The position numbers and the translations under genes were made by a program. Below the pieces are notes generated by a model, which was not told where the DNA came from, did not search any database, and saw only the letters and a program-made list of their open reading frames with translations. A stretch of DNA of 42,377 bases from Entophlyctis helioformis (lineage: Eukaryota; Chytridiomycota; Chytridiomycetes; Chytridiales; Chytriomycetaceae), in NCBI GenBank assembly GCA_025526915.1, contig JAHLKH010000207.1:1-42377 (forward strand), written 5' to 3'. Shown here in pieces: positions 1,403-42,377 of this stretch. How positions within the stretch are numbered: the first letter of the stretch is position 1; every line of letters begins with the position of its first letter.

Positions 1403-4400
1403 TCACGCGACGCCGCTTGGTTTGGTCAGCGGGGGCGGCGCTTGGCTCGGCCCTTGCGGTGCGACGAGTGCTGTTGCGGCTGCCAGACGCTGCCGCCGCC
1501 GCCGCCGCGCGACGGCCCCCACGGCGGCCGCTGTCGCTCTCTTCCTCGTGCATCTGCGCTGCATCCGCATGCGACTCTGGGTGGTGCACAGCTGGCTGCT
1601 GCTGCTGTTGCGGCGGCCTGCCTCAACAGCTGCTGCTGTGCGACCACGGCCACGCTTGCGTGTCACAACCACCCCCAAGCAATCGTCATCTGCAGGCGGT
1701 GGCGACGACTGCGGCGGCGGCACTGGCTCGGCAGCGGCTGCCTTCTTGGCGGGCTTGCGTCTTGCCGGCGCCTTGCCCGCCTCTTGAACAGGCTCAATGT
1801 GCTCCATCTTGGCATCCTCCATCTTGGTCTCGATGGGCACAGTGTCGGCATCGGGCTGCTGCGCAGCGGCTCGCGTCGGCACCGCTCGCTTGGACGCTGC
1901 CGCTGCTCGCTTGCCCTTGCCCTTCTTCTCGGGTTCCGGCTCAGGTTCGGGCTCAGGCACTGGCTGGGCGATACTCTCGACAATGGCGGGTTCGTGCTCT
2001 TGCTCCGACTCTGGCACTGGCTCAGACGCGACTGCATTCTTGCCAGGACGACCGCGTCTGCGTTTGGCGGGGACAGGCTCCTCGGGCACCTCGATCGCCG
2101 GCACTTGGACAACCTGCTCCTCAACAGCCTCGGCTGGCTCTGGCTCGGCGTCTACCTTGGCATGGGCAGCCTTGGCGGCATTGGCCGGTTTGGCCGTCTT
2201 GCCGGCTGAGCGCGTCGCCTTGGGTTTCTTGTCGGCCACAACAGCAGCCTCGACAGGTGCGGGCTGCGAGGACGGTCCAGGCTCCGCCTGCTCGTCGTGC
2301 GTCTCGTGATGAACAGTGGCGTGGTCGTCGTGATCGGCATCCATGGCAACATCCATAGTCTTGGCGGCCTTGCCCTTGACCGTCTTCTTGGTGACTCTGC
2401 CCGTCTTGGACGTCTGGGCAGACTGGCCAAGCAGAGCATCCGTGTCAACGACCGGTGCTTGTTTGCGCGATCGGGTGGCTCGTGTCGATGCGCGTGTGGC
2501 ATGGGCTGCCGCATGCTCAGCGTCTTGCGCGGCAGTTGCCAGTCCATCCGCCTCGGCTGATGCTACTGTTTCAGCAGCCTGCGCAGGCACTTCTTGGGCC
2601 GCTTTCAGAGCAGCAGCGGCGGCGGCAGCAGCTTCGGCAGCCAGCGACTCCTTGCGTCTGCGTCTGCGAGCAGCACGCTTGGCTTTCCGCTGCGACGAGA
2701 TGGACGACGACGACTCGCACGAAGAGACTGGCGTGCTTGGCCGCTCAAAGAGAGCGGTCGAAGACGCTGTGCCCAACGACGGCTGCGACGACTGCGACAA
2801 CGGGCGTGGCGACATGTGTGCATGTGTGGCCATGCCGCCAACGCGAAGAGGCGAGTCAGCAACGCGACGTGCCAAGGGCGATCCGGCTGTGACCGCCACA
2901 ACAGCAAATGGTGCCGATGGCCCGGCCGGCTGCGGCAATGACGGGGAGGCGGCAGAAGGGGTGACAGACCCCGAGGCCAGGATGGGCTGCGTGTGTGATG
3001 CAGACGCGACCTTGTTGGCGGCCTTGACAGCAGCCGCGGCAAACATGCTTGCCACATTGCCGTCCCTGGGCACTCCTGGCGACGCTGCAAGAGACGCGCG
3101 ACGCTTGGCCTGCTTCTTCTTGGACTTTTTGTCAGCGCCTTGCGTTTCCTGTGCTGCATCGGCAGACGAGACCGAGACCGACTTGGCCAAGACGGGCGTG
3201 GAAGGCGTTTGGCGCTTGCTGCCTTCCATTGCGGCATTGTCTTCGCCATTAGCATCGACTTCTGGCACTTGGAACGGAGACTTTGTTTTGGGGAGACTGC
3301 TGGGGCCCCCAGCCGACTGCTGGAGCTGCTGGAGCTTGTGCTTCTGCTGGGTTCCGTGCAGCGGCGTCTTGGGCACATGTGAAGGCGTGTGTGGCACAGC
3401 TGTCTTGGATGGCGTCTTTGGCTGCGATGGAGACTGCTGTTGCTGCTGCATGCCAGGCGACTGGCCCGACTGCTGCAACGCTGCGATCGCCTGCCGAATC
3501 TTCCTTTGCTTCTTCTTGTGCGACTGCGACAGAGACTGCTGCGATGGCGACGGCTGAGATGCCCACGTCGGAGACAGGATGCGTGGCGACTGCTGGTTCA
3601 ACGCGGATACCGAGTTGGCCGTCAGCTGGTGCACGCTGTTGAACATTCTCTCAAAGGCAGTTCCCTGCAGCTGGCTGGCAGCGGGTGTTGCCGACTTCCT
3701 GATGGCTGGTGACACCGACGTGCTTGGCGTAGCTGCTGTCTTGGCGGCGGCGGCAGCAACCGACACCGACGATGATGGGCCTGGAGTGGCAGCAGCAGGC
3801 TCAGCCTCGATGACGCGTTGTGCAGATGGCGTCTTGAGCATCTCTGCCATCCCATCAAAGTCGGCCTCTGCTCGCTGCTTTGGCGTCTTGACAAGAGCCT
3901 TGAGACCTCGCAGATCCGGCGTCGACGGCGCAGCTTTAGGCGTCTGCATCATCTCGCGCAGACCAGTGTAGACCACATCAGGCGTGTCGTTGCCACTGGT
4001 GTTTGCCGCGCCGTGCCGATGGCGGCTTCGACCGTTGTCGTCGCTGTGGCGGTCGGCTTGGTAGGAGACTGCATGTCAGAGAGGGCAGGAGCAGACTCGT
4101 CTGCAACCGCATTCTCGACTTCCCGATCTGCAGGAACCGCATCTTGCTCTGCACTGCTTGCAGTCTCCACGGGCTCGGCTGCCAAAGCGATCTCGGCAGC
4201 CTGCTGGTCGGCTTCTTGTTCAAGGACCATGCCAGCCCCCTCGTCAGCAGGGGCAGCCATGCAGACATCCACAGACGTCTCGTCAGCAGCGGCAGTCGGA
4301 ATTGTGTCGGTTTCAGCCGGGTCCGTTGCTTCGGCTGGAGGAAGAGGCTGTGGCGTGCTGTCCAAAGATGGCTCGTCGCCCACAGGTGGAACTGCATCGG

Positions 4401-6178
4401 CGTGGTCCGTCTCGGCAGCATGCTCTGCTGGCGTGGCGGGTTCGGCGGCCACCTCCTTGTCTAGGGCAGCTTGCTGATCGGTCTCGGCCGGTGCGTCTGT
4501 ACCTGTGTCGTGTTCAGCCTCGACCTCTTCGTCCACAGCATCGACGGCGTGCTCGGCAGGTCCAGACGCGACAGAGTCTGTGTCCTCGTCGTCATCCTCA
4601 CGAGCCGCGTCAGCCTCAGTAGCAGCCTTGGGCAAGTCATCAGCTTCGGCAACCACCACGACCGCTTCGACAACCTCGGAACGCGTCTCCATGGGCTCGC
4701 CAGCATCTGTGTCGCAAGATTCGGCCATCTCTGCGACAGTTTGCATTTGCTCTGGCTTGCTGTCAACGGCGGCATCCATGCCATCGACGTCCATGGTATC
4801 CAGCTCAACTGCCTCTTCTCCAATGGGCGATGCCGGCGTCGAGGGTATCGCCATTTCAGCAGCAGCAGCATCAGCAGGCGGCTCGATCTGCTCACTCGAC
4901 TCGGGCGGCGTGCTCTCGGCAGGATCCGCACGTTCTGTATCACCGACGTCTGCAGTCGTCTCGACTTGGACCTCGGCTTCCAAGACATGCTGCACGGCAG
5001 TACCAACGGCCTCTGCCTCGTCGTCGGCTGTGTCGTCGACCGTAGCGTCCAGATCGCTATCGACCGTGTCAACCGCGTCTTGTTCCGCGACGAGAGCGTC
5101 TGTATCAGCCTTGGGATCAGGCTCCTTGTCAGCCGGCACATCCAGTGCGGGCTCGCCATCGCCCAAGACTTCCGCTTGCGTCTGAACGACAGTCATCGGC
5201 AGTTCCAAAACTTGCTGTGCATCTGCCTCGACTTGATCAGCGACTGCTTCGACCATTTCAGCATCAGCATCAGCATCGGCATCGGCATCAGCATCCGCCA
5301 CAGCCTCGACTGCGTCAACCCCGTCATCGGCCACGGCCGAATCCAAAATCTCGGGGCTTCCCACAGCAGAAGCAGAAGCAGCAGAAGCAGGTACTGCCAC
5401 GTCCACGGGATCAGATCCCATGAAACTGGCAGCCGTAAGCGTCCTGGGAACCGGTGTGGATGGCGGCAAGTCCACAGGAGCCGAAGCCTCGAGCGGCGTG
5501 TCAATTCCCTGCGTATCGCCCGAAAGCGCAAACAGTTTCTGCGGCAGTGACGGGACGAGCTCAAAGACTCCGCTCGGCGACGCGGCGCCGGTCGATGCGG
5601 CGAGGAGGGGCGACGACAGCATGCTGGACAACTGGCTCCCGGCCGATGCGGATGCGGATGTGGATGCATGTGCATGTGCAGGTGCAGACGAGGATGCGGA
5701 TGCACAGGCTGATGCAGCTGGAAGGGAATGGGCCGGAGTGCTGGAGACCGATGCCGACGCTGCGGTCAGTGCCGGCTGGATTTGAGCGTCAGGCGACATG
5801 AGGCTTGGCGGCATCCGTTTGGCAGACTGGCTGCCCGCAAGAGCAGCAGGAGTGCGATGACCCGATGCCGATGCAGACGCCGATGCAGATGCAGAGGGTG
5901 AGGGCGAGGCAGACGCCGATGCGGAAGCGCTCTGTATCATGTATGCAATCTTGGACATGGGCGTGCCCTGGAAACCGCCAAGAGCGCGTCTGGCCACATC
6001 CCCATCGCGTCGACGCAAGGCCGACTTGAGAGGCGACGATCCGTCCAGCACGGCATGATGGCGAGAGACTTTTTGGCCGCGTGTGACGGGGGTTGATGGC
6101 GGCTCGTTCTTGTCAAAGATCTCTGGCTCGAGCGGTGGGCCAAACGTGACGCCTCGCTTTGACGCAGAGCCTGGTAGT

Positions 6179-6216
<38 letters not shown>

Positions 6217-8629
6217 AAGGCGTTTGTGTGTGAGTGGGGCCGGCGACGACATGGCCGACTGCTGGGATTGGCGCACGGTCGTTGGCGTTGTTGCAGCTGC
6301 ATCGTGGACAGATGGCGTGGCTGCTGTGGGCGGTGTGCCCGAAGGAGATGCGGCTTGCTTGCGATAGGCAAACATCTCGGATAACAAGGTGGAGCCGCGC
6401 GACGGCGTCGTTGGAGCGGCGTCGTCTTGCTGAGTGTCCGACTGTTGCTGCTGCTGCTTACGATGACTCTGCACGACCTTGGACACTGATGCAGGAACAA
6501 TAGCCTTGCGGCGGTTTGGCGTGCCACTTGCCTGCGTGGCGGATGATGCAGGCAAGGCAGGAGCCTCCGAGACACTGGCTGGCAACACGGGCTCGGCTGC
6601 GGGAGCAGATGATCCCGCGGTTTTGGATGTTGGAAGACGCGGCTTGGCAGAAGCAGTCTTGACAAACCCATCCAACTGGTTCCAAAAGAAGTCCTCGCCG
6701 AACGAGAAAGCTGGCGCAGCACTGGCGAGAGCAGGCACTGAGAGCGTCGTGGTTGCAGTGGTGGACGACGAGCGAGCCAAGCCAGGGCCAGTGCCAGGGC
6801 CAGGGCCAGGCGACCGAGTTGCTAGAGAAGCAAGCGGGTTGGCAAATGCAGCTGGAGACGGCGCGGATTGCGACTTGGCCATGGGCGACAAGGCAAGTAA
6901 AGCAGTGGCGGCAGCGCGTCGTGAAAGCGACTTTGTTGGCGTTGATGCGGCCGGCAGTGGTTCCGAAGCTGATGCAGCTCGGGCCGACGACGGCGCGTCA
7001 ATGGCAGGGTCCGCCTTGAGGCTCTTTGCAGACGCTGTGCTGCCCTGCGGAGTGGCAGACACGCGCTTGTTAGACAGGTGAGGCGTCGTGGTGCGATCAG
7101 CAGCGCGAGCAGGTGGTGTCGTCGGCTGGGCGGACTCGGCGGCCAGATTGGCATTCTCCATGACAGTATCAGCCGACTGAGGAAGTTCAGCATCGGCTGT
7201 GCAGCTTGGTGGCTCGGGCGTCGCAACCTCCTGCTCGTCGCTCTGCTTCTGGGGCTGCTGAACAGACTCGTCCATAGGCTTTGCGGCTTGTGGTGGCTCA
7301 GAAGCAGCGAGATGGAAGGAAGCCTCATGAACAGTCTCTGCGGCATTCTTGGCGAGGACCTCCTTGAGCAGCGAGTGCGAGCCCGAAGGCTGTGCTGACG
7401 GCATGATCTGCCCTGCCGACTGCGAGGGCATCGGCCGCGGAGACATGGCGGCAACGATCGAGGGCTTTGGACGCTGGGCCATTGGCGAAGAGACTAGTGG
7501 CAGCGATCCCTTGTGCGCAGCCGAGCGGGTTGGAGTGGCAGGAGCAGACCGGCTTGGAGAATCGTCTGCCTTTGGTTTGACGGCCGATAAGCGGGCAGAT
7601 CGCCGGCGGCCGCTTGGAGGTGGGTCCTCGCCTTGGTTGGTGCTGGCATTGGGAGCATCCACAGAGACTGCAGGAAGGGCCGGGGCTGACGAAGAATCTG
7701 CTGCTTCGGCTGCGGTTGTGGCTCGGGCAAGAGAATCGTCTGCTAGTGCCTTGGAGCGAGGCTTGGCGATTGGCGTTGCGCGCTGTTCCCTGGGGCGTGC
7801 AGTGGACGGCACTGGCTTGTGTGCCGGAGTCGATGCCACGACGGGGGCCGGGGCGTGGTTCTCCTTGTCGCTGACGTTTAACACGCGAACCTGCTCGAAG
7901 GCGTTAGACGGACGGCAGTTGATGGCAGCGCGATGTGGCAATGGACGAGCATACCTCTGCGCTCTTCTTGAACAGAAACTGGATGTCGCAGATGTGGATG
8001 ACATCGCCGTCCTGCAGAAGCGTGCGCTCTGTGATTTCGGTGTTGTTGATGACCGTTCCGTTTGCGCCCGTGCTGTGCATGTACACCTGCGTCGTTGGCA
8101 TGCACGGTCAGATGGTTGTATCAAGCGGACACGATGCAGATCGGCGGCGTGTCCGGCAGCCGCGACCAGAGCCAGACACGCTCGCGTCCAAAGGGCAGGC
8201 GAGCAAGAGGGCGACGAGCAGGCACGCATACCTTGCCAGACGCAGCGTCATAGTCGAGCGTGGCGTGGAAGCGGGACACCTCGGGCGTGATGAAGCGGAC
8301 CTCGCAGCTCGGGTCGCTGTTGAGGCGCAGACACGCAGAGCGTCAGACCGAGCGTTCGACAACGGACAGACAGATGGACATGGAAGGCATGGAAGGCAAG
8401 CAGACAGACACGGCGTATGAAGAAGACGCACCGGCCAAAGAAGACTTGCTTCTGCCACAGAGGAAGCGGCCTGTGCATGCAAGCCGTGCGTGTGCAAGAG
8501 AGTGTGTGTGAGTGTGTGTGTTGGTTTGTAGCTGCCAACAGATACAAGCAAGCAGGCAGGCCGGTGCACGTACTCGCCCACGACGCCCGTGTTCTTGATG
8601 ACGGCCAGGCTGCCGTACGGCGTGTGCAT
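1403..8629 (-). CDS. Ki-67-like FHA / PP1-docking giant nuclear protein
   Basis: A protein of roughly 2,200-2,300 aa. The first exons (8629 to about 7950) encode an FHA domain: GSLAVIKNTGVVGE, then PLPLWQKQVFFGR, DPSCEVRF, VSRFHATLDY, and NGTVINNTEI with LQDGDVIHICDIQFLFK. Arg and Ser of the phosphothreonine pocket (FGR, VSRFH) are present. A huge disordered exon rich in Ala/Ser/Pro/Glu follows, with polyQ, Asp-Ala runs and many TP/SP sites. Near 6085-6170 lies a PP1-docking block, KRGVTFGPPLEPEIFDK then PPSTPVTRG, closely resembling the Ki-67/RepoMan RVSF block. Near 3850-3976 are three short repeats ending in QTPK/KTP, including DFDGMAEMLKTP. The C-terminus has an AT-hook-like core (KRRRGRPGKN) and Arg/Lys-rich stretches. 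The reading frame shifts by one base near 3980-4060 with no convincing intron, probably a missing base. The family call rests on motif order; function as a mitotic chromosome/PP1 scaffold is inferred. Confidence 0.75.
3849..3980 (-). repeat. Three Ki-67-type TP repeats
   Basis: Three tandem degenerate units are encoded: YTGLREMMQTPKA, DLRGLKALVKTPKQ and DFDGMAEMLKTPSA. Their spacing is 13-22 residues. The consensus (hydrophobic-G-[LM]-x-x-[LM]-hydrophobic-x-TP) matches the core of the human Ki-67 repeat, in which a GLKELFQTP-like core recurs. Confidence 0.7.
6085..6170 (-). other. PP1-docking motif block (RVxF-type)
   Basis: The encoded stretch reads KRGVTFGPPLEPEIFDK followed by NEPPSTPVTRG. 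In Ki-67 and RepoMan the equivalent is an RVSF motif, then a PELFDENLPPNTP-like segment that selects PP1-gamma. R-x-V-x-F fits the RVxF rule, and the FD-[KE]-N-x-PP-[SN]-TP spacing is kept. TP could be a mitotic CDK site. Confidence 0.75.
6178..6216. repeat. CAG/CTG microsatellite (polyQ)
   Basis: An almost pure run of CTG triplets on the plus strand encodes a polyglutamine tract on the minus strand, just after the PP1-docking block in genomic order. Length polymorphism is likely. Confidence 0.9.
7950..8629 (-). other. FHA domain exons of Ki-67-like protein
   Basis: At least four exons build the domain. The exon ending in FFGR (about 8430-8470) stops at CG/GTGCG, and the next opens after CCTCAACAG, joining to FGRDPSCEVRF. 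The exon ending in YDAASGK has a GTATGC donor. The exon 1 donor (around GAGTACGTG) does not give a clean phase into exon 2, so that junction is uncertain. Confidence 0.65.
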
Positions 8630-10342: not shown

Positions 10343-11550
10343 TCATTTGATCGCCTTGATGACGTCCTTGGCAAACATGTAGTGCAGACCAGACCAGATG
10401 GTGGTGACTGCGACCGTGTATCTGGTTGAGGCATGGACTCTGGTAAGCAGACACGCAACTGATACGGCCATCCGATATCCACGTACTGCAGTAGTGTGAG
10501 GAGCATGGCGTCTGCCAGTCCGAGCAGCGGCATGCAGAGCGACGCTCCCATGAGAGTCAGCTGGAGCAGAGTGTTGAGTTTGGAGATGAAAGGCGGCCGC
10601 ACTTCTGCGCTGGGTAATGCCAAATTAAAGTATCGCTGAACGGTTTTCTGAGAGGGCCGATTGCGTCCGTCAGTCGCTGTGCATGGGGTCTGGATGGAGT
10701 CTGGATGGAGTCCAGAAGCAACAGACTTGGTTCGACTTACAGGTGCGGGCAAGGTCGCGTAGCGATAGTAAGCCGTGGCCAGCACAAGGCCGACATCGCG
10801 TCCAATGATGAGCACAGCAAGATAGACTGCGATTGCCCAAGGGGAGGGGATGACGACAGGGTGAGTCCACGGCAAGCACGGCTACAGACAGCGCTGGATG
10901 GCATGGCATGGCAGGAGCCGACTCACGGGGAAGAAGGCCGGCCTGGCACAGCGACACGGTCAGCGTAGTCATGAGGATCTTGTCGGCAGCAGGATCCAGC
11001 GCGGAGCCCAGGGCCGTTTTGAGGTTGTAGCGACGGGCAATGAAGCCGTCGGCCAGATCTGTGAATGCAGCGACGGAGAGCAGCGCGACTGCGGCCGGGA
11101 ATGCCTGCTGCACGATGAGCAGGCCGATGAACGGCGTCATGACGATGCGGCTGAGCGTGAGGGCGTTGGGCAGGTTGTAGATGTTTTCAGAGGCGGGTGG
11201 CCGCTGTGATGGCTGTGTTGGTGTTGGTGTGGATCCAGGAGCAGATCCAGATCCAGATCCCGAGGACAGAGGCCGGGCAGAGTGCCCTTGGTGCCCTTGG
11301 TGCCCTTGGTGCCAATGAGCCAGCGCTGCTTGAACGAGGCCAGTGCCGGTGCTGCCACGGGTCGAGCGTTCAAGCCCAGAGAGGCCGCGCTGCTGCTGCT
11401 GCGGAGCGAGAAGAGGGCGGCGTGTGCCGGCGCAGTGGCCGTCCATCCTGTCGTGCGTGCAGCCGTCCATCCTGCCGTCCATCCTGCCACTCCCACTCCC
11501 GCCTGTCCACGCAGCAGCCGTCCTTGTTGCAGCAGCCGTCCTTGGAGCAT
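10343..11550 (-). CDS. CRD1: Cardiolipin synthase, mitochondrial
   Basis: A CDP-alcohol phosphatidyltransferase that joins CDP-diacylglycerol and phosphatidylglycerol to make cardiolipin in the mitochondrial inner membrane. The family motif DLADGFIARRYNLKTALGS continues into LDPAADK (D-x2-D-G-x2-A-R-x8-G-x3-D-x3-D), preceded by NIYNLPNALTLSRI. Downstream exons encode LAVLIIGRDVGLVLATAYY, RYFNLALPSAEVRPPFISKL and WSGLHYMFAKDVIKAIK. The model is complement(10343..10421, 10487..10647, 10741..10826, 10927..11550). The N-terminus from Met 11550 is Arg/Ala/Ser-rich without acidic residues (MLQGRLLQQGRLLRGQ), a typical mitochondrial presequence. That frame must shift by one base within or near the KGTKG repeat (about 11270-11310) to reach the catalytic frame; restoring one base makes the total length a multiple of three. 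It starts 46 bp from ERG25. Confidence 0.88.
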
Positions 11551-11596
11551 TGCGAGTTTCCTTCTTGACCGCAAACCCGCCAAACCCGCATTCCAG
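11551..11596. promoter_or_regulatory. 46-bp gap between divergent CRD1 and ERG25 starts
   Basis: The ATG of cardiolipin synthase (11548-11550, minus) and of ERG25 (11597, plus) are only 46 bp apart, leaving a C/A-rich spacer. Transcription starts or control elements must overlap the coding region of the partner if both starts are right. Confidence 0.5.
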
Positions 11597-13323
11597 ATGG
11601 CGCTCAACCTTGCGACGCTCGCGACATCTGCCGCCGCCCTCGGCAGCCTGCTGCTCAGCGAGACGCTGGCCGCCAGCGAGGCCGCCTCCATCGTCGCCAA
11701 GTCGCTGTACTCGGTGCTCACCACGGGCGCCTCGGCCCTGCCCGCCGACTACGCCGCGACCGTGCAGGCCCACGCCCCGCTCAATGCCACGTACGTGAGC
11801 CGTGCACGCCTGCCCGTCTGCCCGTCTGCCCGTCTGTCTGCCTATTGCTCTGTCAGTTGATGCCTGTCTGCCTATTGGTCCGTCGGCCGGTCCGTCGGTC
11901 GGTCGGTCGGTCGGGAGCATCGATCTGCCTTGGCCAATCGGCCGCTCCCTTGTGCCTTCCGAGCTGTGCTTGCCAAGCACGCAAACGGCGGCCTCGGGCT
12001 GCTGCTGCCTACGTGGCTGGCTGCCACACAAGGACGGCTTGCCTATGCGACCCTCTGCTGACTGATGCTCTGCTGACACCCGCATCCGCACACGGCGTCG
12101 CCTTGCGAATGCCGCATTCATGTGCCTGCAATGCACGCTGCGGCGAACGCCTGCCACCAACAACAACCACCACAACGCCTGCCAACAGCACGGCGTTCGA
12201 GCCCACCGTCGCAGAGAGCCACTGGCTCGCCCTCTTCACCCACTCGCAGTCGCCGTCGATCCGCCTGGCCCTCATCCTGTTCGTCTGGCACGAGATTGTC
12301 TTCATCGGCCGCTACATCCCCTTTGTCATTGCCGACCACATCCCGTACTTCCGTCGCTACAAGATCCAGGCCGTGCGTACCATGGCTGGCTGCCTGCCCC
12401 CCTTGCCCTGCCACTCTCTCTCACTGTTACACTCTCACTCACTCGCTCTTGCTGGCATTCGCTTGCACAGGACAAGATCGTCACGGATGCTCACTGGTGG
12501 AAGTGCGTGCTGCACGTCGTCTTCTTCCAGCTCGTCGTCGAGCTGCCCATGATGATGGCCTTCCACCCCGTCGCCATGTCGCTCGGCATGAAGTTCCTCG
12601 AGATTCCCCTTCCGTCCTGGTAAGCCTCTTGCTCTCGCCCTCGTCCTCGCTCTTGCTCTCGTTGCGGCACTCTTGCGTTGTGGCGGCGGCTGCCGTCCGC
12701 CGTCGATTCATTTCCCATTCATCATGGCTCATTCAACGCCGTATCTGCCGTTTATCCGTCGCATTCCTTGCTCCGCGTCGGCCTTGGCGCGCACTCGGAT
12801 CATCGCGCTTCCACTACGGCCTCGGCCCCTGTCCAGGACGTCCATGGGTCTGGCCACCGTCTTCTTCCTCGTCATGGAGGACTTTTACCAGTACTTTGCC
12901 CACCGCTTCCTCCACTGGGGCGTCTTTTACAAGCACATCCACAAGATGCACCACGAATACTCGGCTCCGTTTGGCCTCTCGTCGCAGTACGCCCACCCCG
13001 CAGAGACCCTCATTCTCGGCCTCGGCTTCTTTGTCGGCCCCATCATGTGGGTCTACGCGTTCAACGACCTCCACGTGGTCACCATGGCCGTCTGGCTCGC
13101 CGTGCGTCTCCTGCAGGTCGTCGACGCCCACTCTGGCTACGACTTCCCGTGGTCGCTGCGCCGCATCCTGCCCTTCTGGGCCGGCGCCGATTTCCACGAC
13201 TACCACCACATGGCGTTTGTCGGCAACTACTCGTCCTCTTTCCGTTGGTGGGACGCCATCATGGGCACAGACAAGGCTTTCCACGCCTGGAAGGCAAAGG
13301 TCGCTGCCAAGAAGGTGCAATAA
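11597..13323 (+). CDS. ERG25: C4-methylsterol monooxygenase (ERG25)
   Basis: An ER-membrane non-haem di-iron oxidase that removes the C4 methyl groups in ergosterol synthesis. The model join(11597..11790, 12189..12372, 12471..12619, 12837..13323) gives 337 aa in frame. The first of the three histidine boxes is HRFLH, after LVMEDFYQYFA. The second is HKMHHEYSAPFG and the third is DFHDYHHMAF. Hydrophobic stretches LALILFVWHEIVFIG and VLHVVFFQLVVELPMMMAF are membrane segments. The C-terminus is Lys-rich (AWKAKVAAKKVQ) and could act as an ER retrieval signal. Length and layout agree with fungal ERG25. Intron 1 is long (398 nt) and made of short tandem motifs. The downstream gene on the same strand is about 900 bp away. 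Confidence 0.95.
11791..12188 (+). other. Long repeat-rich intron 1 of ERG25
   Basis: The donor is GTACGT and the acceptor GCCAACAG. Inside are tandem CTGCCCGT units (11811-11840) and a GGTCGGTC run (11885-11915). It is several times longer than most introns here. No gene or structured RNA was seen in it. Confidence 0.7.
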
Positions 13324-14220
13324 GCGATGCTGTGCACCACTACCTCTCTCCTTTTTTATGCCGTGGGCCACGGGTGAAGGATCCAATCTCCAACCCCACT
13401 CTCTCCCCCCCTCCCCGCCGACCTCCCCTGTTGTCTTTCAGACGCCAACCATTACACCCGACTGTTGCGCAGCTCATCTTGCTTTGTTCTTGAATACAGC
13501 AAATGGCTTCTTCAATCCATTCGTTGGCATGTGCACCGCATAAAGCAGATCTGATAGGCAGCCTGCCATTCAGCCTGTCAGGCTTGGCCGGCACCGGGTC
13601 CTGACACGTGGATGCCGTTGAGCGTGTGACGGTGTGGATGCCGAGCAGCTGTGGTGGTGTCTGTGCCAGGCGTGTGAGTCCGCAGATGCGATCGTTGCTT
13701 GCGGTGTGTCCTGCATGGTCGCTGTGTATGGATGCTGCGTGTGCTGCTGTTGTTGCTGTTGCTGTGGCGAAAGGAGCCTGAACAGTGTGGGGAAGCTCAT
13801 CGCACAGCGCACAGACAGCCCGACAGCTGCCGTGCGGCCAGCAGGGCAGTCGGTCAGCGTGCGGTCGTGCCATGGCCGGCTGCTTGTGGCGATGCCCTCA
13901 CCTGCACACACGAGCCACACGCAGGCAAGATCCAGCACACGCAGCAGCAGCGACGGCATCGCTGGCACGCATGCGTCGACACACGAGCGCATCGCAGCAG
14001 TGGCCGATGGTGGCAGACCGTGTCCTGTCTGGTGCCGTCCGCTGGTGCCGTCCGGCCTGACTGGTCTTGCTTGTCGGTCTGTGGCCAAGTCTGCACTTCC
14101 ATTCTTCCCGTGTGTTTTCGGCCGCGTTTCGCCGCGTCTGCCCTTCAAAAGCCGCCGCCCTTTCTCGGCATCTGCACCGACAACACACAGCACCAACAGC
14201 ACCAACAGACCCATCCCGCC
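13324..14220. other. Intergenic, no gene recognised
   Basis: About 900 nt between ERG25 and the aldo/keto reductase. Open frames exist on both strands but show no domain, composition or splice pattern of a real gene. A short CTGTTG-rich patch lies at 13741-13765. The last 60 nt before the reductase are C/A-rich (CACCAACAGCACCAACAG), like a fungal 5' leader. Confidence 0.5.
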
Positions 14221-14619
14221 ATGGCTTCCACCAAGACCGCAGTGCCGCAGCGCAGACTTGGCAAGAACGGCCCGCTCGTCAGCGCACTCGGCTTCGGCGC
14301 CATGGGAATGTCCGAGTTCTACGGCGCCGTCGACGCCGACAGCGAGACGCAGTCGCTGGCCATCCTACACGCCGCCATCGACGCCGGGTGCACCTTCTGG
14401 GACACGGCCGACATGTACGGCTCGGGCAAGAACGAGGAGCTGCTGGCCAAGGTGCTCGCCACCCGCCGTGACGAGGTGTTTCTCTGCACCAAGTTTGCCA
14501 TTGTCCGCGGCGAGGGCGGCATGGGCATCTCGGGCAAACCCGAGTACGTCAAGGCGGCGTGCGCTGCCAGCCTGAAGCGTCTGGGCATTTCCACCATTGA
14601 CCTCTGTGAGTGTAGCCAG

Positions 14620-14659
<40 letters not shown>

Positions 14660-15526
14660 TGCTGTGCCACTTGCTCGTTCAAGCAGCCACGCCACAAGCG
14701 CAGATCCACCGACAATGCCGCATTGAGCGTGCTGCATTGAGCGTGCGGCATCGAACAGCTCTCGCTGACCGCCGCCCGGCTCCACAGACTACCAGCACCG
14801 CCCAGACCCCAACACGCCCATCGAGGACACGGTGCGCGCCATGGCCGAGCTGGTCGCCGAGGGCAAGGTGCGCTATCTGGGCCTGTCCGAGTGCAGCGCA
14901 GACAACATCCGCCGCGCACACGCCGTCCACCCGATCGCGGCGTACCAGGTCGAGTACAGGTGCGTGGCTGCCATGCGTGGCCGCCATGCGGGATGTCCCT
15001 CTGATCGCATCCTGGTGCACTCACACACGCTGCTACAACAACCACAACCACAACAACCACAACAACCAGCCCATGGTGTCTCGACATCGAGACCGACGGC
15101 CGCCTCGCCGTCTGCCGCGAGCTCGGCATCGCCATCGTCGCGTACTCGCCCCTCGGCCGCGGGTTCCTCACGGGCCAGTACAAGTCGCCGGCCGACTTTG
15201 AAGAGGGCGACTTCCGCCGCTACCTGCCGCGCTTCCAGCCCGGCGTGTTTGAGCGCAACTACGAGCTCGTGCGAGCGTTTGAGACGATCGCGACGGCCAA
15301 GGGCATCACGACGTCGCAGCTGTGCCTTGCGTGGGTCATGGCGCAGGGCGACGACTTTATCCCCATCCCGGGCACCAAGCGCATGAAGTACTTTGTCGAG
15401 AACTGGGGGGCCGTCGGCGTGGCGCTGACCGCGGGCGACCTGCAGCAGATCCGCGACGTGATTGCCAAGATCCCGATCGAGGGCGAGCGCTACACGGCGC
15501 AGGGCATGTCGTCGGTCAACCGATGA
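14221..15526 (+). CDS. Aldo/keto reductase (AKR13-like)
   Basis: An NADPH-dependent oxidoreductase of the aldo/keto reductase superfamily, probably cytosolic. The model join(14221..14605, 14788..14959, 15070..15526) encodes 337 aa in frame. The catalytic tetrad is visible as Asp61 and Tyr66 (DTADMYGSG), Lys91 (FLCTKFA) and His132 (YYQHRPDP). Other signatures are LGFGAMGMS near the N-terminus, [15 protein letters not shown], and [18 protein letters not shown], the cofactor-binding loop. The GFGAMGMS start and long C-terminal loop resemble fungal and bacterial AKR13 / pyridoxal-reductase-like enzymes acting on aldehydes; the real substrate cannot be told. Intron 1 carries a GT dinucleotide repeat. 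The start ATG sits in a good context (CCGCCATGG). Confidence 0.9.
14622..14659. repeat. (GT)n microsatellite in AKR intron 1
   Basis: About 19 GT units lie directly downstream of the GTGAGT donor. The tract is intronic and likely length-polymorphic. Confidence 0.95.
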
Positions 15527-27544: not shown

Positions 27545-30422
27545 TCACAGCTCGTCGTGCCCGCCAAACAGATCCGCCTCTTCCTCAACCTCCTCGTCCT
27601 GCTCCTCTGCAGACGCGCCGTCCTTGGCAGCCGTGGCCTCAGAGCCCTTGCCGTCCTTGTCGTCCTTGTCGTCCTTGTCGTCCTTGTCGTCCTTCTCCGG
27701 CGCAGGCTCGACCTGGACCGCCGCCTCCTTGGCGACATCAATGCCGATCGTGCGGCGGAGTGCGCGGTCGATCTCGGTCAGGAACAGCTTCGTGTCGCGC
27801 GGCTCCCAGCCAGAGGCAATCGACGTGGCCTCAAAGAGGACGTACGGCACACTGTCGACCTCGTCCTGCTTGCCCGCCTTGACCTTGCTGAGCAGGCCTT
27901 CAATGATCGGGTGCGCCTGGCACAGGCAGAGCATCCACGCATGGGTCAGAAGCGATGTTGCCAAGCCAACGCGTACCCAGCACGGCTGCTTACTGGGTTG
28001 ATCTCAAAGATGCGCTTCTGGCTGCGGTAAAAGTTGAACATGGGGTCATCGCGATCGCCGACTTGGGCAGCGTACAGCCGCTCCTGGCTGGGCGAGAGTC
28101 CCATCTGGCTGGCAAGCACGGCGCTGGGCGACGACGTGAGCTGCGTCGACACGCGCACCTCTTGCACGTTCGCCTCCAGCTTGGTCTTGAGCCAGTCAAT
28201 CAGCGGCTTGTACTCTTCCGTGAGCTTGGTCACGGCAGCCTCGGACTTTTCGTCTTCGTCGCCAAACTTGAGGCCGGCCTTGCCAACGTGCTGCAGAGGG
28301 AACCCGAGCGCCTTCTTGAGGTCGGCAGACTGGCCAATGTACTCATCCGCCGGGTCGGTCATGAAGAGGACCTCGTAGCCACGCGCGACAAGCTTCTCGA
28401 CAAAGGGCGACGACTTGGCGGTCTTGCCGTCGGCGGCAGTGATGTAGTAGATCTGCGGCTGGCCCTTCTTCATGCGGCCAATGTACTCGTCGAAGCTCGT
28501 GAGTTCGGTGGGGCCAGACGTCTCAAAGCGCAGCAGTTTGACCAGCTTCTTGGCGAAGCCCTTGGACTCGATGATGCCAAACTTGATCGCGGAGCGGTAC
28601 TTTTTGTAGAACGCCTTGAACGCCTCGGGGTCCGACTCGGACAGCTTGACAATCATGTCGATCGCCTTGTTGACGAGCTTCTTGCGAATGAGCTTGAAGA
28701 CCACGTGGTTCTGGAGCGTTTCGCGCGAGACGTTGAGCGGCAGATCGTCCGAGTCGACAATGGCCCTGAGGAAGCTGAGCCAGCGCGGCAGCAGGCCAGC
28801 AATCTCGTCCGTGATGAAGACGCGTCGCACAAACAGCTTGACGTTCTTGTTGATGGGCTCGTCAGCCTGCAGGAACTTGGCCGGGGGGTTGGTGGGGATG
28901 TACAGGATCGAGCGGAAGTCTGCCTCGCCCTCGGCCTTGAAGTGGTTGTGGGCGATCGGGTTGACCGCGTCGCGGAAGAACGACTTGTAGAACTCGTTGT
29001 ACTCGTCATTGCTGACCGTTGACGGAGGGCGGGTCCAAATGGGTTTGTTCTCGTTCAGGAGTTCCCAGTCGGCAACCTCACGCGTGATGGTCTTTGTCTT
29101 CTTGGAGCCTTGGCTTCTTGCTCAGTGACGTCCTCGACATCGTCGTCGTTTGGCGCAAGATCTGCGTTGGGGTCGTCGAGATCAGGCACCTCTTCTTCGA
29201 CGGTCTTGACGGACCAAAGGTAGATGGGGAAATTGATAAACTGGCTGTACTTCTTGACAAGGCCGCTCAAACGTGCGGGCTCGAGGAACTCTGCGGCATC
29301 GGGCTTGAGGTGCATCACGATCTGGGTGCCGCGTCCGAGCGTGTTTCCGCGAGGATCCTTGACGAGTTTGAAGTCTTTTTGGGGGGCGTGGGCAAGGGAT
29401 CCAGCAATAACCACAGCAGACGGTAAGCGTTATGCGGTAAGAGCAGCGGCGTGGCAATGGCGGCACACTTGCCATTCTCAGACGTCGATTCCCAGATGTA
29501 CTGCTCGCCAGCGTTGTTCTTGGACACGACAGTGACCGAGTCGGCGACAAGGAAGACAGAGTAGAAGCCGACACCAAACTGGCCAATGAGATCAGAAGCG
29601 GAGCCGTTGTTGTTGTTCTCGAACGACTTGAGAAAGTCTGCGGTGCCAGACTAAGCAGGTGGGGAGGAGTCAGCGATGCGCAAGTACGCGTGCCAGACAG
29701 GCAGCCGTGATATCAAGAGGATGGTGCACACACCTTGGCGATGGTGCCAAGGTTGTTGCGGAGCTCGTCCTTGGTCATGCCCACACCGGCATCGCTGATG
29801 GTAAGCGTGTTGTCAGCCTTGCTCGCGACAATGGTGATCTTGAGGTCGGGGTTGGTCTCGAGCTTGGACGGGTCGGTGAGCGAGAGGAAGCGGATCTTGT
29901 CGAGAGCGTCGGATGCGTTCTATGCACGAGTCGGCACAGCAGAGACGGCCCAAGGCGTTGTGTGGTCAGCATTCAATGCTCGGAATGCTGTGGAACTCCG
30001 CCACCGCCCGCTCCAGCACTCACCGAGATGAGCTCACGGAGGAACACCTCTGCCAGCGACACCGAGTCAGGTGGACAGATGGACAGTGGACAGTGGACAG
30101 GTGGAAGATGCACCGGCAGAGACGGAAGCAGCATGTCAGCGGCGACGCCATGGCGCAGGCAAGCGCAGCAACAAGAGAGCAACCGCCCACCTTTGCTCTT
30201 GTACAGCGAGTTGATGATGAGCGTCATGAGGCGGTTAATGTCCGACTCGAACTTGATGCTTTCGCCGGCCTTGGTGACGTCGGCAGAGGGAACGTTGAAG
30301 CCCGGCGGGGTGAGCTGGGCAGCAGTTGCAGCGTCGCTACTGCTGCCGCCGCCGCTGGTGTCGCTGGCCACGGCCAGGCCGAGGAACGCAGCCAGTGCGA
30401 GAAGAAGTGCAAGCGGTCGCAT
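27545..30422 (-). CDS. HSP90B1: Endoplasmin, ER-resident HSP90 (GRP94)
   Basis: An ATP-dependent chaperone of the ER lumen. It starts [20 protein letters not shown] (signal peptide) and ends GGHDEL (ER retention). HSP90 signatures in order: [166 protein letters not shown] and KRIFEINP. Five or more short introns lie toward the 5' end. The acidic tail contains KDD repeats near 27655-27695. One base seems missing near 29110, where QEAKAP must change frame to continue as [14 protein letters not shown]; the region 29400-29470 is also unclear. GRP94 is distinguished from cytosolic HSP90 by the signal peptide, HDEL in place of MEEVD, and the charged linker. Confidence 0.95.
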
Positions 30423-34571: not shown

Positions 34572-34954
34572 CTATGACGATGGCTTCTCCGAAGGCGCAG
34601 CTGCAGACGGCGTTGCTGGTGCGGCAGCAGCGATCTGTCTCTTGTACTCGCTCCAACTGGCCATCATCGTGAGTCAACCGTCAGTGGCAGAGGACAGCGG
34701 CGACAGCGTCATGCTCCGGAGACCTACACAAAGCCGCCAACGAGCGTGCCAATGGCCAGCATCTGGGCGCTGATTCTGAAGCGCTGAGCCTTTTGGAAGT
34801 CGACCACGTCTCTGCGCTGGAGCGCCTCGGTCATGCGGTAGAAGGCGAACAGCGTCAGGCCAACCGCCGGCAGAACGAACGGGTTCTCAGACGCCTTGCG
34901 CTTGGTGCGCTGCCAAAAGGTCTCGTCTTGCCTGAGCTCGCCTGCCGTGTCCAT
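34572..34954 (-). CDS. HIG1-domain mitochondrial protein
   Basis: A 103-aa protein, complement(34572..34656, 34728..34954), in frame. It reads MDTAGELRQDETFWQRTKRK, ASENPFVLPAVGLTLFAFYR, then RFRISAQMLAIGTLVGG, then after the 71-nt intron FVWSEYKRQIAAAAPATP. Two hydrophobic hairpin helices separated by a basic loop (EALQRRDVVDFQKAQRFR) are the HIG1 (hypoxia-induced gene 1 / Rcf1-Rcf2) fold, which sits in the mitochondrial inner membrane and supports cytochrome c oxidase and its supercomplexes. FWQRTKRKASENP corresponds to the family's conserved E/K-NP motif before helix 1. An upstream exon cannot be excluded, since MCTGRRAEPLTRW precedes in frame. Rcf1 against HIGD2A subfamily was not resolved. 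Confidence 0.85.
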
Positions 34955-35110
34955 CCAGCGTGTCAGTGGTTCTGCCCGACGACCGGTGCACATGATGCTG
35001 GGCAGTGCTCTGCTGGGCAGTGCTCTGCTATGCAGTGCTCTGCCTCTGCTGTGCAATGCCCTGGGCCCTGCCCTGTGCTGAGCAGTCTGGCCAAGACCCT
35101 CGCTCACCAG

Positions 35111-38100
35111 GCTGCATCGTTGAACGTTCACTGCGAATTCGGCAAGTGACGAATGAATTCGCTTCCAGTGCGATGAGCTGCTCGCCGAGGTCCAGCGGGT
35201 GCGAGACGAGTATCTGCGCAGGGGCGGCAGCGACATCAGCGTATTGGCAGAGCTCGCATCCATGGAGCGAGAGGCCACATTGTTCAAGTATGGCAAGCAG
35301 CCAGCGCTTGGCTCTGCAGATCTGGACAGGCAAGCTGCACTCGACGTGACCGGCAACACCACAGACAGCATCCAAGGACAGCCATACGGACACCAAGAGC
35401 AGCAGTATGGGCATGGGCTGCAGGACGAGAAAACAGGGCGTGGGCAGCAGCAAGTCCAGCCGTCTCGCTCAGCGGCCGTGCCACCTCCAGCCAAGAGCAG
35501 CCAACGGACGACAGCCACGTCCAACCGCGTCGAGCGTGCAGTGGCGCTTCAAGCTGGTCGGTCGGCTCTTCTCGCGCTCATCGCTTGCAGCACCGATGCA
35601 GGGCAGTTGCTGACCGGGTGCGCCTGCATGCATACACAGACGACGCACGGTGCTTGAAAGGCTGCAACAGCAGCACAAGCTGCGGATGCTCAAACTGCAG
35701 CAGGAACGAGAGGTGCTGATCATGGAGCAGGATCTGCGCGAACTGCGCGAGTGAGTCCCGCTGGTAATCCACAGCCATTGTCGCCGCTGACCGTTGCAAG
35801 GGACGCTGGATGTATTCAGAGACCTCGGGCTGCCACAGATTTCACACGCCGAGATTGTTTCTGGAGCGTCAAGCCTCGCACCGGCAGTCACAGATGCATC
35901 CAATGCTATCCAAGCGGCACCTTCTGCAGAAGCCGACACGACATTGTCTGAATCTGCTGCAGTGCCTTTGGGCACACAAGCGGCAGCCAGCAGCTATCGT
36001 GGCGCATTCTACGATCCTGTTCGTGGCGTGTGTCTCTATTGGTGCGTGGTGGCCTGAGCCTTGATGTTCAAGCCGGCACGCGACTGGCCGACTGACGAGC
36101 GGTACAACAGGGACTACTTGATCGCCATGCAGACCAATGTCAAGTGGACGCATTCGCAAACCACCTTTACGGTCTTCAACGGCGCTCAGTCGGCGCAGCC
36201 TGTGCAAATCGTGCCGTTCCAGCCATGTGCCCCTATCACGCTCAGCTCCGGCACGTCAGCCGCGTGCACCATCATGCGGTCTCAGCACTCGATTGTCGGA
36301 GTAATACGCCTTGTGGCATTCTCTGTCTTTTTGACGGCAACCGTTGCTCACACAGTCGTATCCGACGGCAGGTTACGCAACGCCACTCAACCGTCTGGTT
36401 GTTGAGGTACGGATCAAGGACGAGACAAGCCCGATTGCTCGCGCTCGTCTCAATCCAGTGTGTCTTGGCTGGACGTCCTTTGATCTGTTTTCCAACCGTC
36501 TGCAAGTCGAGGCTGGCACATGGTGACCATGCGGATGCTGTTGCAGTGTAGCACAAATGCGGATGTGACTGATACAACGCGGGTTGTGACTCGGCAGGAA
36601 AGTACCGCTGTTTCCACCCCGATCGACTTTAACATCACCACAGCATCGCTTTACACAACAACGACGCCGTAAGCCGCCAGATGATGCTGGATCGCAGATA
36701 TGGGCAGCATGGGGCTTGGCTCACAGCCAACCAAACACAGTTTGCCCAACACGTGCCTTCTCTTGCGTATCTGCGATGTGGCATACATCGCATCCATGCT
36801 GGAAGAGAATCCAGACCCAGTATCCGCAGAGCAGCTCTACTCGACAAAGACATACACATCGTCGCAGGTGTGTAGACAAGGCATGATCAACGCGACTTGC
36901 AAGCAACCCGTCTGACAGCACCCCACAGCAAGCACATTTCCCAAACAGCGACGTGTCAAAGCCATCGCTGACCAACATCAACAGAATACCCGCGTCTCCG
37001 TCCCCTATTGGCGTCATCCGGCCCCTTCAAGACCATCTCCAGCAGTTTCTCAAGCCCGTCACACTGGAAAGCATCAAACGCAAATTCGGACCTTCTGAGA
37101 GCGAGATGCAGCGTGCTGCTGTCGCTGCTGCCAATGCCAAGGCTGTTGCTGCACACATGGCGCTGATATCCAAGGCCAAAACATTCGAGTAAGACGGCCC
37201 GTGCGTCATGGTTGGGAGAAACCGGCTGACTGGCTTGTACGTGGTGCAGTCTAGGACTGCAGATGGAAGAGATTCGGGATGCCAGAGGTGGTCAGTGTGC
37301 GTGCACTGATTGTCAAGATGCGCGTCGTGGATCCGCAGGGCGAGCCGCCGACACCAACAGGATTCACTTCACTTCCCGCCGAGGTGCAGTTTCGAACACA
37401 TTGCCACTTTCGAAGGATTGGGATCGTTGGGATTGGGCTGATGTGTTTGCACAGGCTGGTATCGAGCCGTGCACGTACGGCTGGGGAACGCGGCGACGTG
37501 CACGAGTTTGTCGCTGTGCCTGCTCTGGACAAGCGCAAAGCAGTCTTTGATCTGATGGATGAGGTATGATGCATGGAATGTCTTGTTAGTGGAACATCAC
37601 TCACTCGAGAATGGCTTCGCAGCAAGGGCAACAAGTCGCGACCGGAAGTATCGAGATATTCAAGTTTCACCAAGGAGAGCCATTTGGTCAGTCCATTGAT
37701 GGATGGACATCTGGGAACCATTGCCCTCAAGCAATGCTGATTGACGACCGTGCCAGGCATCAATGACGGCTTGCACGAGGTCGCCTTGACACTTGCACAA
37801 CGCCGCAAGGACATATCAAGCAAAAGCGTCCAAGACAATCCACTGGATGTGCAGCCGACGCTGGTTTTGCGAGTGTACAACCCTAAGTACGGAACGCCGC
37901 CTTCAAAGCGCGTAAGTCTGCTCCTGCCCATGACTTGCTTGGGTGACAGGCGTGATTTACTCGGTCGTCTCGTGTGACAGTTTTCTCCCAGACTGGTCGT
38001 GCCGCCTATCCCTGCCGAAGCGTGGATTGCAGTCCCGCTTTCCAAAGGTAAATGGTCCAGGCTTCCTTTCATGGCCATCAACCGCGCTGACCACTGAAAT

Positions 38101-40156: not shown

Positions 40157-42377
40157 TCAGTGGTGTGTCAGCGACCAGATCTTGATCTGTGCGTCCTGAC
40201 CAGACGAGGCAATCGTGTTGTTGTCGAGGAAGACTGCGCCAGTGACAGAGTCCTGGTGTGCTCCCTTGATCGAGATGTGCTTCATGGGCTTCTCGACACT
40301 CCAGACCTCCACATTGGTGTCCAGGGATCCCGACACGGCATGCAGGCCATCGGGGGACCAGGCGATCGAGTTGACCTTGGCCGTGTGGAACACCCACTGG
40401 TTCAGTCTCATCTAACGCGCGCCATCACCAAGTACTGTCAGCAAGCCGTCATGGCCAGCGTATCACAAACACGCCTGAATCCTACCCTGCCGGTTGCGGT
40501 ATTGTAGACCATGACCGTGCGCTGAGAGTCAGCGACAGCAAGGAGGTCGCCATTGGGCGAGTATGCCATGGCTGTGATGGTGCCCTTGTTGCCCTCAATC
40601 TTGCCCGTTTCGTTCAAACTAGCGCCATCGATCGAGTAGATATGCACAAGGCCGTCCTGCAACGCAAGTAGCCCGCATCAGCTGTCGAGCATTCCGCATG
40701 CAGCTCTTTTGAAAAGCGTACCTCTCCTCCTATGGCAGCAGTCTTGCCGTCGGGCGAGATTGCCACACTCGATGGAGTGTAGGGCGTCTTGATGGTCGAC
40801 TGCTTGACACCGTTGGTGCTGACAATGACCTCATCCTTGATGGTAACCACAATAGAGGTGGCGCCACGCGACGCAAGGCTCTTGGGGACAGCGCCAGTTG
40901 CAACGGCCTGAGGCTCAAACGCCTTGGTCTTGGTTGAGATGGAGCGCATCGAGTCGTCCATGGCTGCAGTCACGATCTTGTCCTGATCGGCAACAAGCGA
41001 AATGATCTGGTTCGTGTGGCCGGCACCCGACACAACCGTGCCACCGTTCTTGCCGTCCGTCCATGAACAGACTCTGCCATCGTAGCTGCCGCTGTAGAGC
41101 GTCTTGTTTGCGTCAAACAGCAAGCGACGTGATTCCCTTGGAGTGGCCCTATGACGCCAGGCATTACAGCAGCATTCGTCAGCACCAACTCAAACAAGAT
41201 CTGTTCAAGCGGCAAAGTCACGGCTTACACTGATGACGCGTGTAGGTCTGCCGCCACTGGTGGGGTCGAGGTAGTTGAGGTCTCCTGACAGCGAGAGCGA
41301 GATGAGCGTGTTGCCCTGCCACAGGCAGCCAACCTGCTGGTCGTCAGTGGTTGGCGCGTCAGAGAAGTTGAACGTCTGGGCAACTTTCTGCGCCGCAATG
41401 TCCCAAATCTTGACGGTTTGGTCTGCTGATGCAGTCATGATCTGCTTGCTATCGCCCGCTCCACGAGACAGAGTAGACGCCACCCGAATGGCTGTTCTCG
41501 GCAGCAGACAGCTCTGCAATGTTGTCTCCGGTCTTGCCGTCGTAGATGAACACCTGAATCGCCAACGAATGCTGGTGAGCACTGGAGTGGCAGAAATGGC
41601 TGCATCTGCGAGGATAGTCCTGCCTACCTTGCCATCCGATCCAGTAGACACGAAAAAGTCTCCGTTGGGCGAGTAGCGCACGCACTGGACAAAGCGCGAG
41701 TGGTTGGTCAGAGACTTGTGAACTTGAAGGGCACGCCGTGGTAAAAGTTGACCGTCATGTCTCCGAGCCAGTGACGGCACGAAGCGGGTCGTCCAGGGCG
41801 GATCGACACCGAGTTGATGACCTTGCTTGGCCGCTGATCTCGCCGACCGACGACGCAGTGTCGAACAGGAAAGCATGGCCGAATCTGTCCTTGCCCTCGC
41901 CGACAGCAATGATGCGCTTGCTCTCAAAGTCCCAGTCGAGATCGGTGACGCGGCCAGAGAACACCTTGGTCTCTGTCTTGATGATGTTCTCCTCCTGCGT
42001 GGTGTCCCAGATGCGGATGTTACCCTGGACGTCTGTCAGACGACCAAGCGAGCCCCGAGCAATGGAGCGTTTCGAGGGCATCCAAGATCCAGCGGCGGTC
42101 AGCGCCGGTCAGCGACCGTGACAATCAGATCCAGCGAAACGAGCAATCGCCACAATCGCCACAATCGAGTCCAGCGAGACCCGCGCAACAAACAGCGTCA
42201 GTGTGGACACAGTGCAGATACAGGCCTCAGATGCGTGCAGGCGAGGTGGGCATGCCAGACGGCGGCACGTACCGGCAGAGGCGATGTAGAAGCCGCTTGG
42301 AGCGTAGCGAGCAACGGTCGTTGGCGCCGTGTGGCCGAACTACTCTTGGCAATCTCTGGTCTCTGTTGTGTGCGGGC
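40157..42377 (-). CDS. AIP1: Actin-interacting protein 1 (AIP1/WDR1), 5'-truncated
   Basis: A WD40 double beta-propeller that works with cofilin to disassemble actin filaments. From the right edge leftward: APTTVARYAPSGFYIASA (42300), GNIRIWDTTQEENIIKTETK, GKDRFGHAFLFDTASSVGE (41880), DMTVNFYHGVPFKF (41740), SRFVQCVRYSPNGDFFVSTG (41670), VFIYDGKTGDNIAELS (41550), IMTASADQTVKIWDIAAQ (41430), LYSGSYDGRVCSWTDGK (41080), PSSVAISPDGKTAAIGGE, DGLVHIYSIDGASLNETG (40640), VNSIAWSPDGLHAVSGSLD (40370) and QDAQIKIWSLTHH then stop at 40157. Order and spacing match AIP1 throughout. The frame breaks by one base at about 41117, 41456, 41718, 41760 and 41826, without introns there. The protein around each break stays conserved, which favours consensus errors over decay. 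The N-terminal blades lie beyond the window. Confidence 0.88.

Follow-up and report, generated by a model that had tools for sequence, protein, structure and literature searches.

Do fungi share the plan of Ki-67, PP1-docking block included? The question is raised by a locus at one end of a 42,377-nucleotide stretch of DNA from the chytrid Entophlyctis helioformis (the whole stretch analysed here; hereafter "the window"). Ki-67 is the standard marker of dividing cells, and its origin is poorly described. A first-pass annotation of the window had interpreted the locus as a single gene for a Ki-67-like protein; on the evidence below, that interpretation is partly supported. We conclude that this chytrid gene probably belongs to the Ki-67/bridgin family.

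A predicted gene with a Ki-67-like order of features

The locus contains one predicted spliced gene, comprising six exons on the minus strand from 8629 to ~1403, with its start codon within CCACCATGC and a predicted product of ~2,240 aa (2,241 aa when the last frame is taken to 1403). In the splice model, exons 1–4 (8629–8574, 8470–8432, 8316–8232, and 8086–7955) encode an FHA domain; exon 5 (7890–4070) encodes a KEN-box-like motif, a basic stretch, a PP1-docking block, and an acidic stretch; and exon 6 (3995 to ~1403) encodes TP repeats and a basic C-terminal region. Introns 1–4 (103, 115, 145, and 64 nt), which connect exons 1–5, have GT..AG ends and ordinary donors. The KEN-box-like motif, at aa 113, occurs once, vs. 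0.06 occurrences expected in shuffles. The order along the predicted protein is N-terminal FHA, PP1-docking block, acidic stretch, three TP repeats, and basic AT-hook C-terminus; the four features that the first-pass annotation had assigned to one gene are located on the minus strand, in one predicted gene and in the order that it had proposed.

The model is less firm towards its end, with an uncertain frame over the last ~250 nt (after ~1640 in the C-terminal region). Codon scores prefer another frame around 1610–1580, and this switch makes a small intron or an assembly indel near the C-terminus likely. In an alternative frame (window ~1650–1403, minus strand), the reading ends ...TARAEPSAAPADQTKRRRVT-stop, and the true C-terminus may differ from that obtained by simple read-through.

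An FHA domain with Ki-67 as closest solved relative

The FHA domain (aa 1–104; 7955..8629, minus strand) is encoded by exons 1–4, with three introns inside, and reads MHTPYGSLAVIKNTGVVGEPLPLWQKQVFFGRDPSCEVRFITPEVSRFHATL...LLQDGDVIHICDIQFLFKK across the exon joins. Pfam FHA matches residues 1–104 at 7.2e-14 with a 234-aa query and at 1.4e-14 with a 110-aa query containing the FHA alone. The G-R, S..H, and N residues that we take to be typical of phosphothreonine-binding FHA domains are present. Among 177,635 distinct sequences of solved structures, the top two matches are both Ki-67 (2aff, 6.4e-10; 1r21, 7.5e-10), with 30 of 96 aligned columns identical to the Ki-67 FHA; CHFR comes next (1.1e-6), ~ten bits lower. 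The closest solved relative is Ki-67, in agreement with the earlier assignment of a Ki-67-type FHA. When the human Ki-67 FHA was scored against this FHA, with 8 of the genome's 15 FHA matches as controls, the value was 5.2e-12 for this FHA and 0.018 for the next-best frame, in a comparison in which the control frames, being unspliced, were at a disadvantage relative to the spliced Ki-67-like FHA.

Other searches with the FHA returned little. The genome-wide FHA profile search that gave the 15 matches did not have this locus among them. The human Ki-67 FHA, run against the whole genome, retrieved nothing, a result that the division of this FHA among four exons probably explains; given this division and the miss by the profile search, the empty result is uninformative. 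A protein-database search with an FHA-containing query (aa 1–1444), covering targets of 794–2527 aa that share exact 5-residue words with the query, in a database that includes chytrid proteins and among them those of E. helioformis, returned five FHA/ABC-transporter proteins and no relative from chytrids or other fungi; an annotated protein of E. helioformis itself was likewise missing.

A predicted PP1-docking block of the Ki-67/RepoMan family

The PP1-docking block, SKRGVTFGPPLEPEIFDKNEPPSTPVTRGQKVS (aa 681–713; 6064..6162, minus strand), comprises an RVxF-type site, an EI pair, and a KiR-type segment. The first-pass annotation had proposed a check with the PP1-binding-family profile, and the outcome favours its reading: Pfam PP1_bind (Ki-67/RepoMan family) scores 29.4 bits in the full exon and 34.6 bits in a 100-aa piece, above the curated cut-off of 27, and the sole match reported at E<=10 across the 29.6 Mb genome is at 6046–6159 (E 3.5e-7; one candidate scored). 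Solved-structure matches of the block at E<=1 are three only, namely Ki-67 in its PP1 complex (5j28; 3.9e-5) and two RepoMan structures (the better at 8.3e-4); identity is 15/32 to the Ki-67 peptide and 13/30 to the RepoMan peptide. The RVxF position is occupied by R-G-V-T-F, which presumably fits the looser [KR]-x-V-x-F form.

Similarity extends into the KiR segment. Against the published consensus, FDxxLP(P/A)N(T/S)PL(R/K)(R/K)Gx(T/S)P (PMC5005033), the chytrid block retains FD, PP, TP, one R, and G; its five departures are L to E, N to S, L to V, R/K to T, and the final (T/S)P. In the same source, KiR selectivity is set by Arg20 of PP1gamma, vs. Gln20 of PP1alpha; a change at the RVxF site of RepoMan, T394D, gives a Kd of 3895 vs. 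124 nM; and a Swiss-Prot search is described as locating the KiR mode in Ki-67 and RepoMan only (PMC5005033). The PP1 exon of the chytrid genome reads VRGSRPG, with an arginine, the residue favoured by the docking motif of Ki-67, at the PP1gamma Arg20 position and with a first codon that depends on the assumed splice site; among solved structures it is closest to an alpha-subunit chain bearing arginine at that position. Arg20 in the genome's PP1 is not special: PP1-gamma shares it. Yeast PP1 too has arginine at position 20.

TP repeats and charge profile

Three TP repeats, DVVYTGLREMMQTP, TPDLRGLKALVKTP, and EADFDGMAEMLKTP, are present at 3824..3991 (minus strand), with 18–19 aa spacing, within ~56 aa. 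A TP-motif pattern matching these occurs 3 times, vs. 0.0004 times per shuffle; because this pattern was composed after the repeats were seen, the published human Ki-67 motif, TPKEKAQALEDLAGFKELFQTP (PMC8354752), is a fairer test. The human motif aligns at a score of 48. In three nulls of 1000 shuffles each, no shuffle scored as high, although the maxima (46, 46, and 47) were near. Pfam KI67R has no match in the predicted protein, TP repeats included, and a genome-wide KI67R profile search, with no positive control among the genomes searched, likewise gave no match. The first-pass claim of Ki-67 TP repeats was overstated: three motif-like copies exceed shuffles, yet they fall short of the Pfam repeat profile. 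More broadly, [ST]P dipeptides number 69 in the predicted protein, vs. 42.3 +/- 5.6 in shuffles.

Behind the PP1 block, the charge of the predicted protein changes from acidic to basic. The acidic region (aa 901–1379; 3992..5502, minus strand) spans a putative intron 5, and aa 951–1424 have a pI of 4.05 and a net charge of -114. The charge profile defines a basic C-terminal region (1403..3628, minus strand), in which aa 1501–2241 have a pI of 10.25 and a net charge of +42, and which contains the AT-hook-like motifs KRRRGRPGK (within 2036–2068) and RKRGRGRT (1637–1660). No LR-type (leucine/arginine-rich) sequence was seen by eye in this region, the frame of which is uncertain at the C-terminal end.

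Taken as sequence evidence, the FHA and PP1_bind profile matches, the Ki-67-first structure matches, the TP repeats beyond shuffles, and the acidic-then-basic charge make homology to Ki-67 well supported. The function proposed below we infer.

Alternative explanations

The strongest rival explanation is that the protein is a kinetochore linker of the type of bridgin, a fungal kinetochore protein, with an FHA and a disordered middle that would reach the outer kinetochore, a basic tail that would hold centromeric chromatin, and a PP1 block that would serve kinetochore dephosphorylation. Bridgin has the same order of FHA, acidic middle, and basic tail (PMC7794384), the middle of the chytrid protein is acidic overall (aa 105–1424, pI 4.4), and a fungal relative may be the closer one by descent. 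Against this, the chytrid PP1 site is of Ki-67 type and lies at aa 681–713, whereas that of bridgin is unconventional and lies at aa 161–164, and the first part of the chytrid middle is basic (aa 105–735, pI 9.99). In addition, a CENP-C profile match above the cut-off indicates that a kinetochore linker already exists in the genome; this point weighs little, because U. maydis is said to retain CENP-C and CENP-T alongside bridgin. The sequence does not decide between a whole-chromosome coat, as for Ki-67, and a kinetochore site, as for bridgin. On balance, we regard the linker explanation as serious but clearly less probable than the account favoured here.

The exon structure bears on whether there is one gene or two. 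The PP1 frame meets its stop only at 3949, and the TP repeats lie in a different frame from the PP1 block, so that a single gene requires either a fifth intron (4069–3996) or an assembly indel; the putative intron 5 found by frame analysis (3996–4069, minus strand; 74 nt; GTCTCC...CCAG) has GT..AG ends and a weak donor. The same observations would fit two neighbouring genes, one for an FHA-PP1 protein that ends near 3949 and another with the TP repeats and the basic tail. We consider two genes unlikely: in the downstream frame, an ATG comes no earlier than halfway through repeat 1, and the order FHA, PP1 block, TP repeats, basic tail matches that of Ki-67. A single gene is the reading retained here.

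Marginally less likely still is convergence, in which an ordinary fungal FHA protein, not descended from a Ki-67 ancestor, would have gained TP sites and a PP1 site of the RVxF type. RVxF sites are short (the loose pattern occurs 2 times in the predicted protein, vs. 0.4 expected), disordered nuclear proteins often contain TP sites, and the missing KI67R match would be in keeping with such an origin. However, the similarity of the block continues past the RVxF site through the KiR segment, and the only PP1_bind match reported in 29.6 Mb falls in a gene whose FHA is nearest to that of Ki-67. Descent within the Ki-67/bridgin family is the explanation with which we proceed.

Host genome and neighbouring genes

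The first-pass annotation had called the genome fungus-like, and it is that of a chytrid. Over 748 aa, one of its chitin synthase frames and an E. helioformis protein are 100% identical, the next-best chitin synthases being those of Batrachochytrium and Polyrhizophydium, and the genome contains a flagellar radial spoke family; NCBI places E. helioformis under Chytridiales. Animal contamination in the assembly, to which the known occurrence of Ki-67 with such a PP1 block in animals would point, is highly improbable: the 42 kb contig that holds the gene has no GC break there (GC 0.62–0.63 over the gene; 0.55–0.65 over the window) and has other eukaryotic genes adjoining, and the similarity of the gene product to human Ki-67 is low (30/96 in the FHA).

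In the same contig, the aldo/keto reductase exon (13678–15198, plus strand) and the CDP-alcohol phosphatidyltransferase (10673–12235), HIG1-domain (34727–35548), and WD40 (41208–42035) exons, all three on the minus strand, are ordinary neighbours. ATG2 (autophagy) matches at window 27584–21176 (minus strand) comprise two exon frames, one above and one below the curated cut-off. An ER-type Hsp90 (GRP94/endoplasmin) lies at window ~29900–27300 (minus strand); its exon at 27949–29121 matches endoplasmin at 2.7e-101, vs. 3.7e-81 for yeast Hsp82. To our knowledge, GRP94 is absent from yeasts, and the chytrid therefore seems to retain an animal-like ER chaperone.

Elsewhere in the genome, the NIFK FHA-binding region (PF12196) has a best E of 0.99, below the cut-off, so that the human FHA partner may be absent; control genomes likewise have no match. 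Two near-equal CENP-C matches lie on separate contigs (C168:42702-43028 and C70:32869-33195), and the frame upstream of the former contains an AT-hook-like KRKPGRPRK. Further twin matches were seen in the FHA search (C89/C102) and the NIFK search (C227/C196); such twins point to haplotype or duplicate copies among the contigs. A CENP-T candidate was rejected: its profile matches are a histone H4 gene (above the cut-off) and an adjacent histone H3 gene (weaker), and its loss makes the bridgin-type rival slightly more probable. This divergent H4-H3 pair (contig C8:254448-255582), which is reported by Pfam CENP-T_C, is a false lead for CENP-T profile searches.

Discussion

Two further points made at first pass were overstated. 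A PP1 module best known from vertebrates had been assumed; Booth et al. had already traced the PP1 block of Ki-67 to Ciona, Saccoglossus, Hydra, and Trichoplax (PMC4032110). A Ki-67 homologue in an early fungus had been said to push the origin of the scaffold back to the opisthokont ancestor; the fungal homologue bridgin is already in print (PMC7794384), as are bridgin-like proteins outside fungi, Amoebozoa included (PMC7794384, PMC9252888). Searches of openly licensed papers for a fungal or chytrid Ki-67 yielded the bridgin line of work only, and in these papers we found no fungal PP1 block of the Ki-67 type. The apparent novelty is a Ki-67-family member from a fungus that retains an animal-type PP1 block.

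This suggests that the Ki-67-type PP1-docking part of the cell-division machinery predates the animal/fungal split; if true, the KiR mode of PP1 docking would date to before the parting of animals and fungi. We lean, by a small degree, to a broader hypothesis: the full Ki-67 plan, PP1 holoenzyme included (FHA, KiR-type block, TP repeats, basic tail, and Arg20 PP1), would already have been in place when animals and fungi last shared an ancestor, chytrids would have kept it, and basidiomycete bridgin would be a derived branch with an altered PP1 site that moved to kinetochores.

A mechanism can be proposed from the anatomy of the predicted protein and from the Ki-67 literature (PMC8786303, PMC8354752, PMC5005033, PMC4032110); the steps that go beyond sequence features we infer. 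The basic, AT-hook-bearing tail would retain the protein on mitotic chromatin. In early mitosis, CDK1 would phosphorylate the repeats at TP/SP sites and the PP1 block at its internal TP; the chain would become more acidic and more extended, and PP1 would be prevented from binding. Upon dephosphorylation in anaphase, the GVTF-EIFD...PPSTP block would bind PP1, and the N-terminal FHA would bring phosphothreonine partners to the tethered PP1, aiding the reversal of mitotic phosphorylation on chromosomes.

Four known systems are relevant for comparison. CHFR is the next-best solved FHA after Ki-67 and differs in scoring ~ten bits lower; it is a RING ligase that is not known to have a Ki-67-type PP1 block. 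RepoMan (CDCA2) has a PP1 block of the same family and is the second-best solved-structure match for the chytrid block. It resembles Ki-67 in only ~40 residues (PMC5005033), whereas the chytrid protein has an FHA, which points to Ki-67.

Ki-67 itself (MKI67, animals) shares with the predicted chytrid protein the FHA, the RVxF and KiR-type PP1 block, TP-containing repeats (motif-like in the chytrid), and a basic tail (putatively DNA-binding in the chytrid), in the same order. Human Ki-67 has 3,256 aa and 16 repeats of ~120 aa (PMC5005033, PMC8354752), whereas the chytrid protein has three repeats 18–19 aa apart, with no KI67R match. A human Ki-67 mutant unable to bind PP1 still clustered chromosomes, indicating that PP1 is unnecessary for some Ki-67 roles (PMC8786303).

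Bridgin (Bgi1) is a kinetochore protein of Cryptococcus neoformans, of which Sridhar et al. call Ki67 the metazoan homologue (PMC7794384). According to that paper, bridgin has an FHA at aa 1–124, an unstructured acidic middle (pI 4.65) with 13 repeats of a bridgin consensus, and a basic tail (pI 11.2) that can be replaced by the human Ki67 tail; PP1 is listed in a pull-down table; and bridgin-like proteins occur outside fungi (PMC7794384). A review describes bridgin as Ki-67-like and as present in other fungal phyla and in Amoebozoa (PMC9252888). Compared by published description, bridgin and the chytrid protein are both fungal and both have an FHA, a long middle that is acidic overall, and a basic tail; they differ in that bridgin has an unconventional PP1 site just behind the FHA, whereas the chytrid protein has a Ki-67-type block farther along the chain. 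A chytrid member with an animal-type PP1 block links Ki-67 and bridgin, and allows one to ask which role came first.
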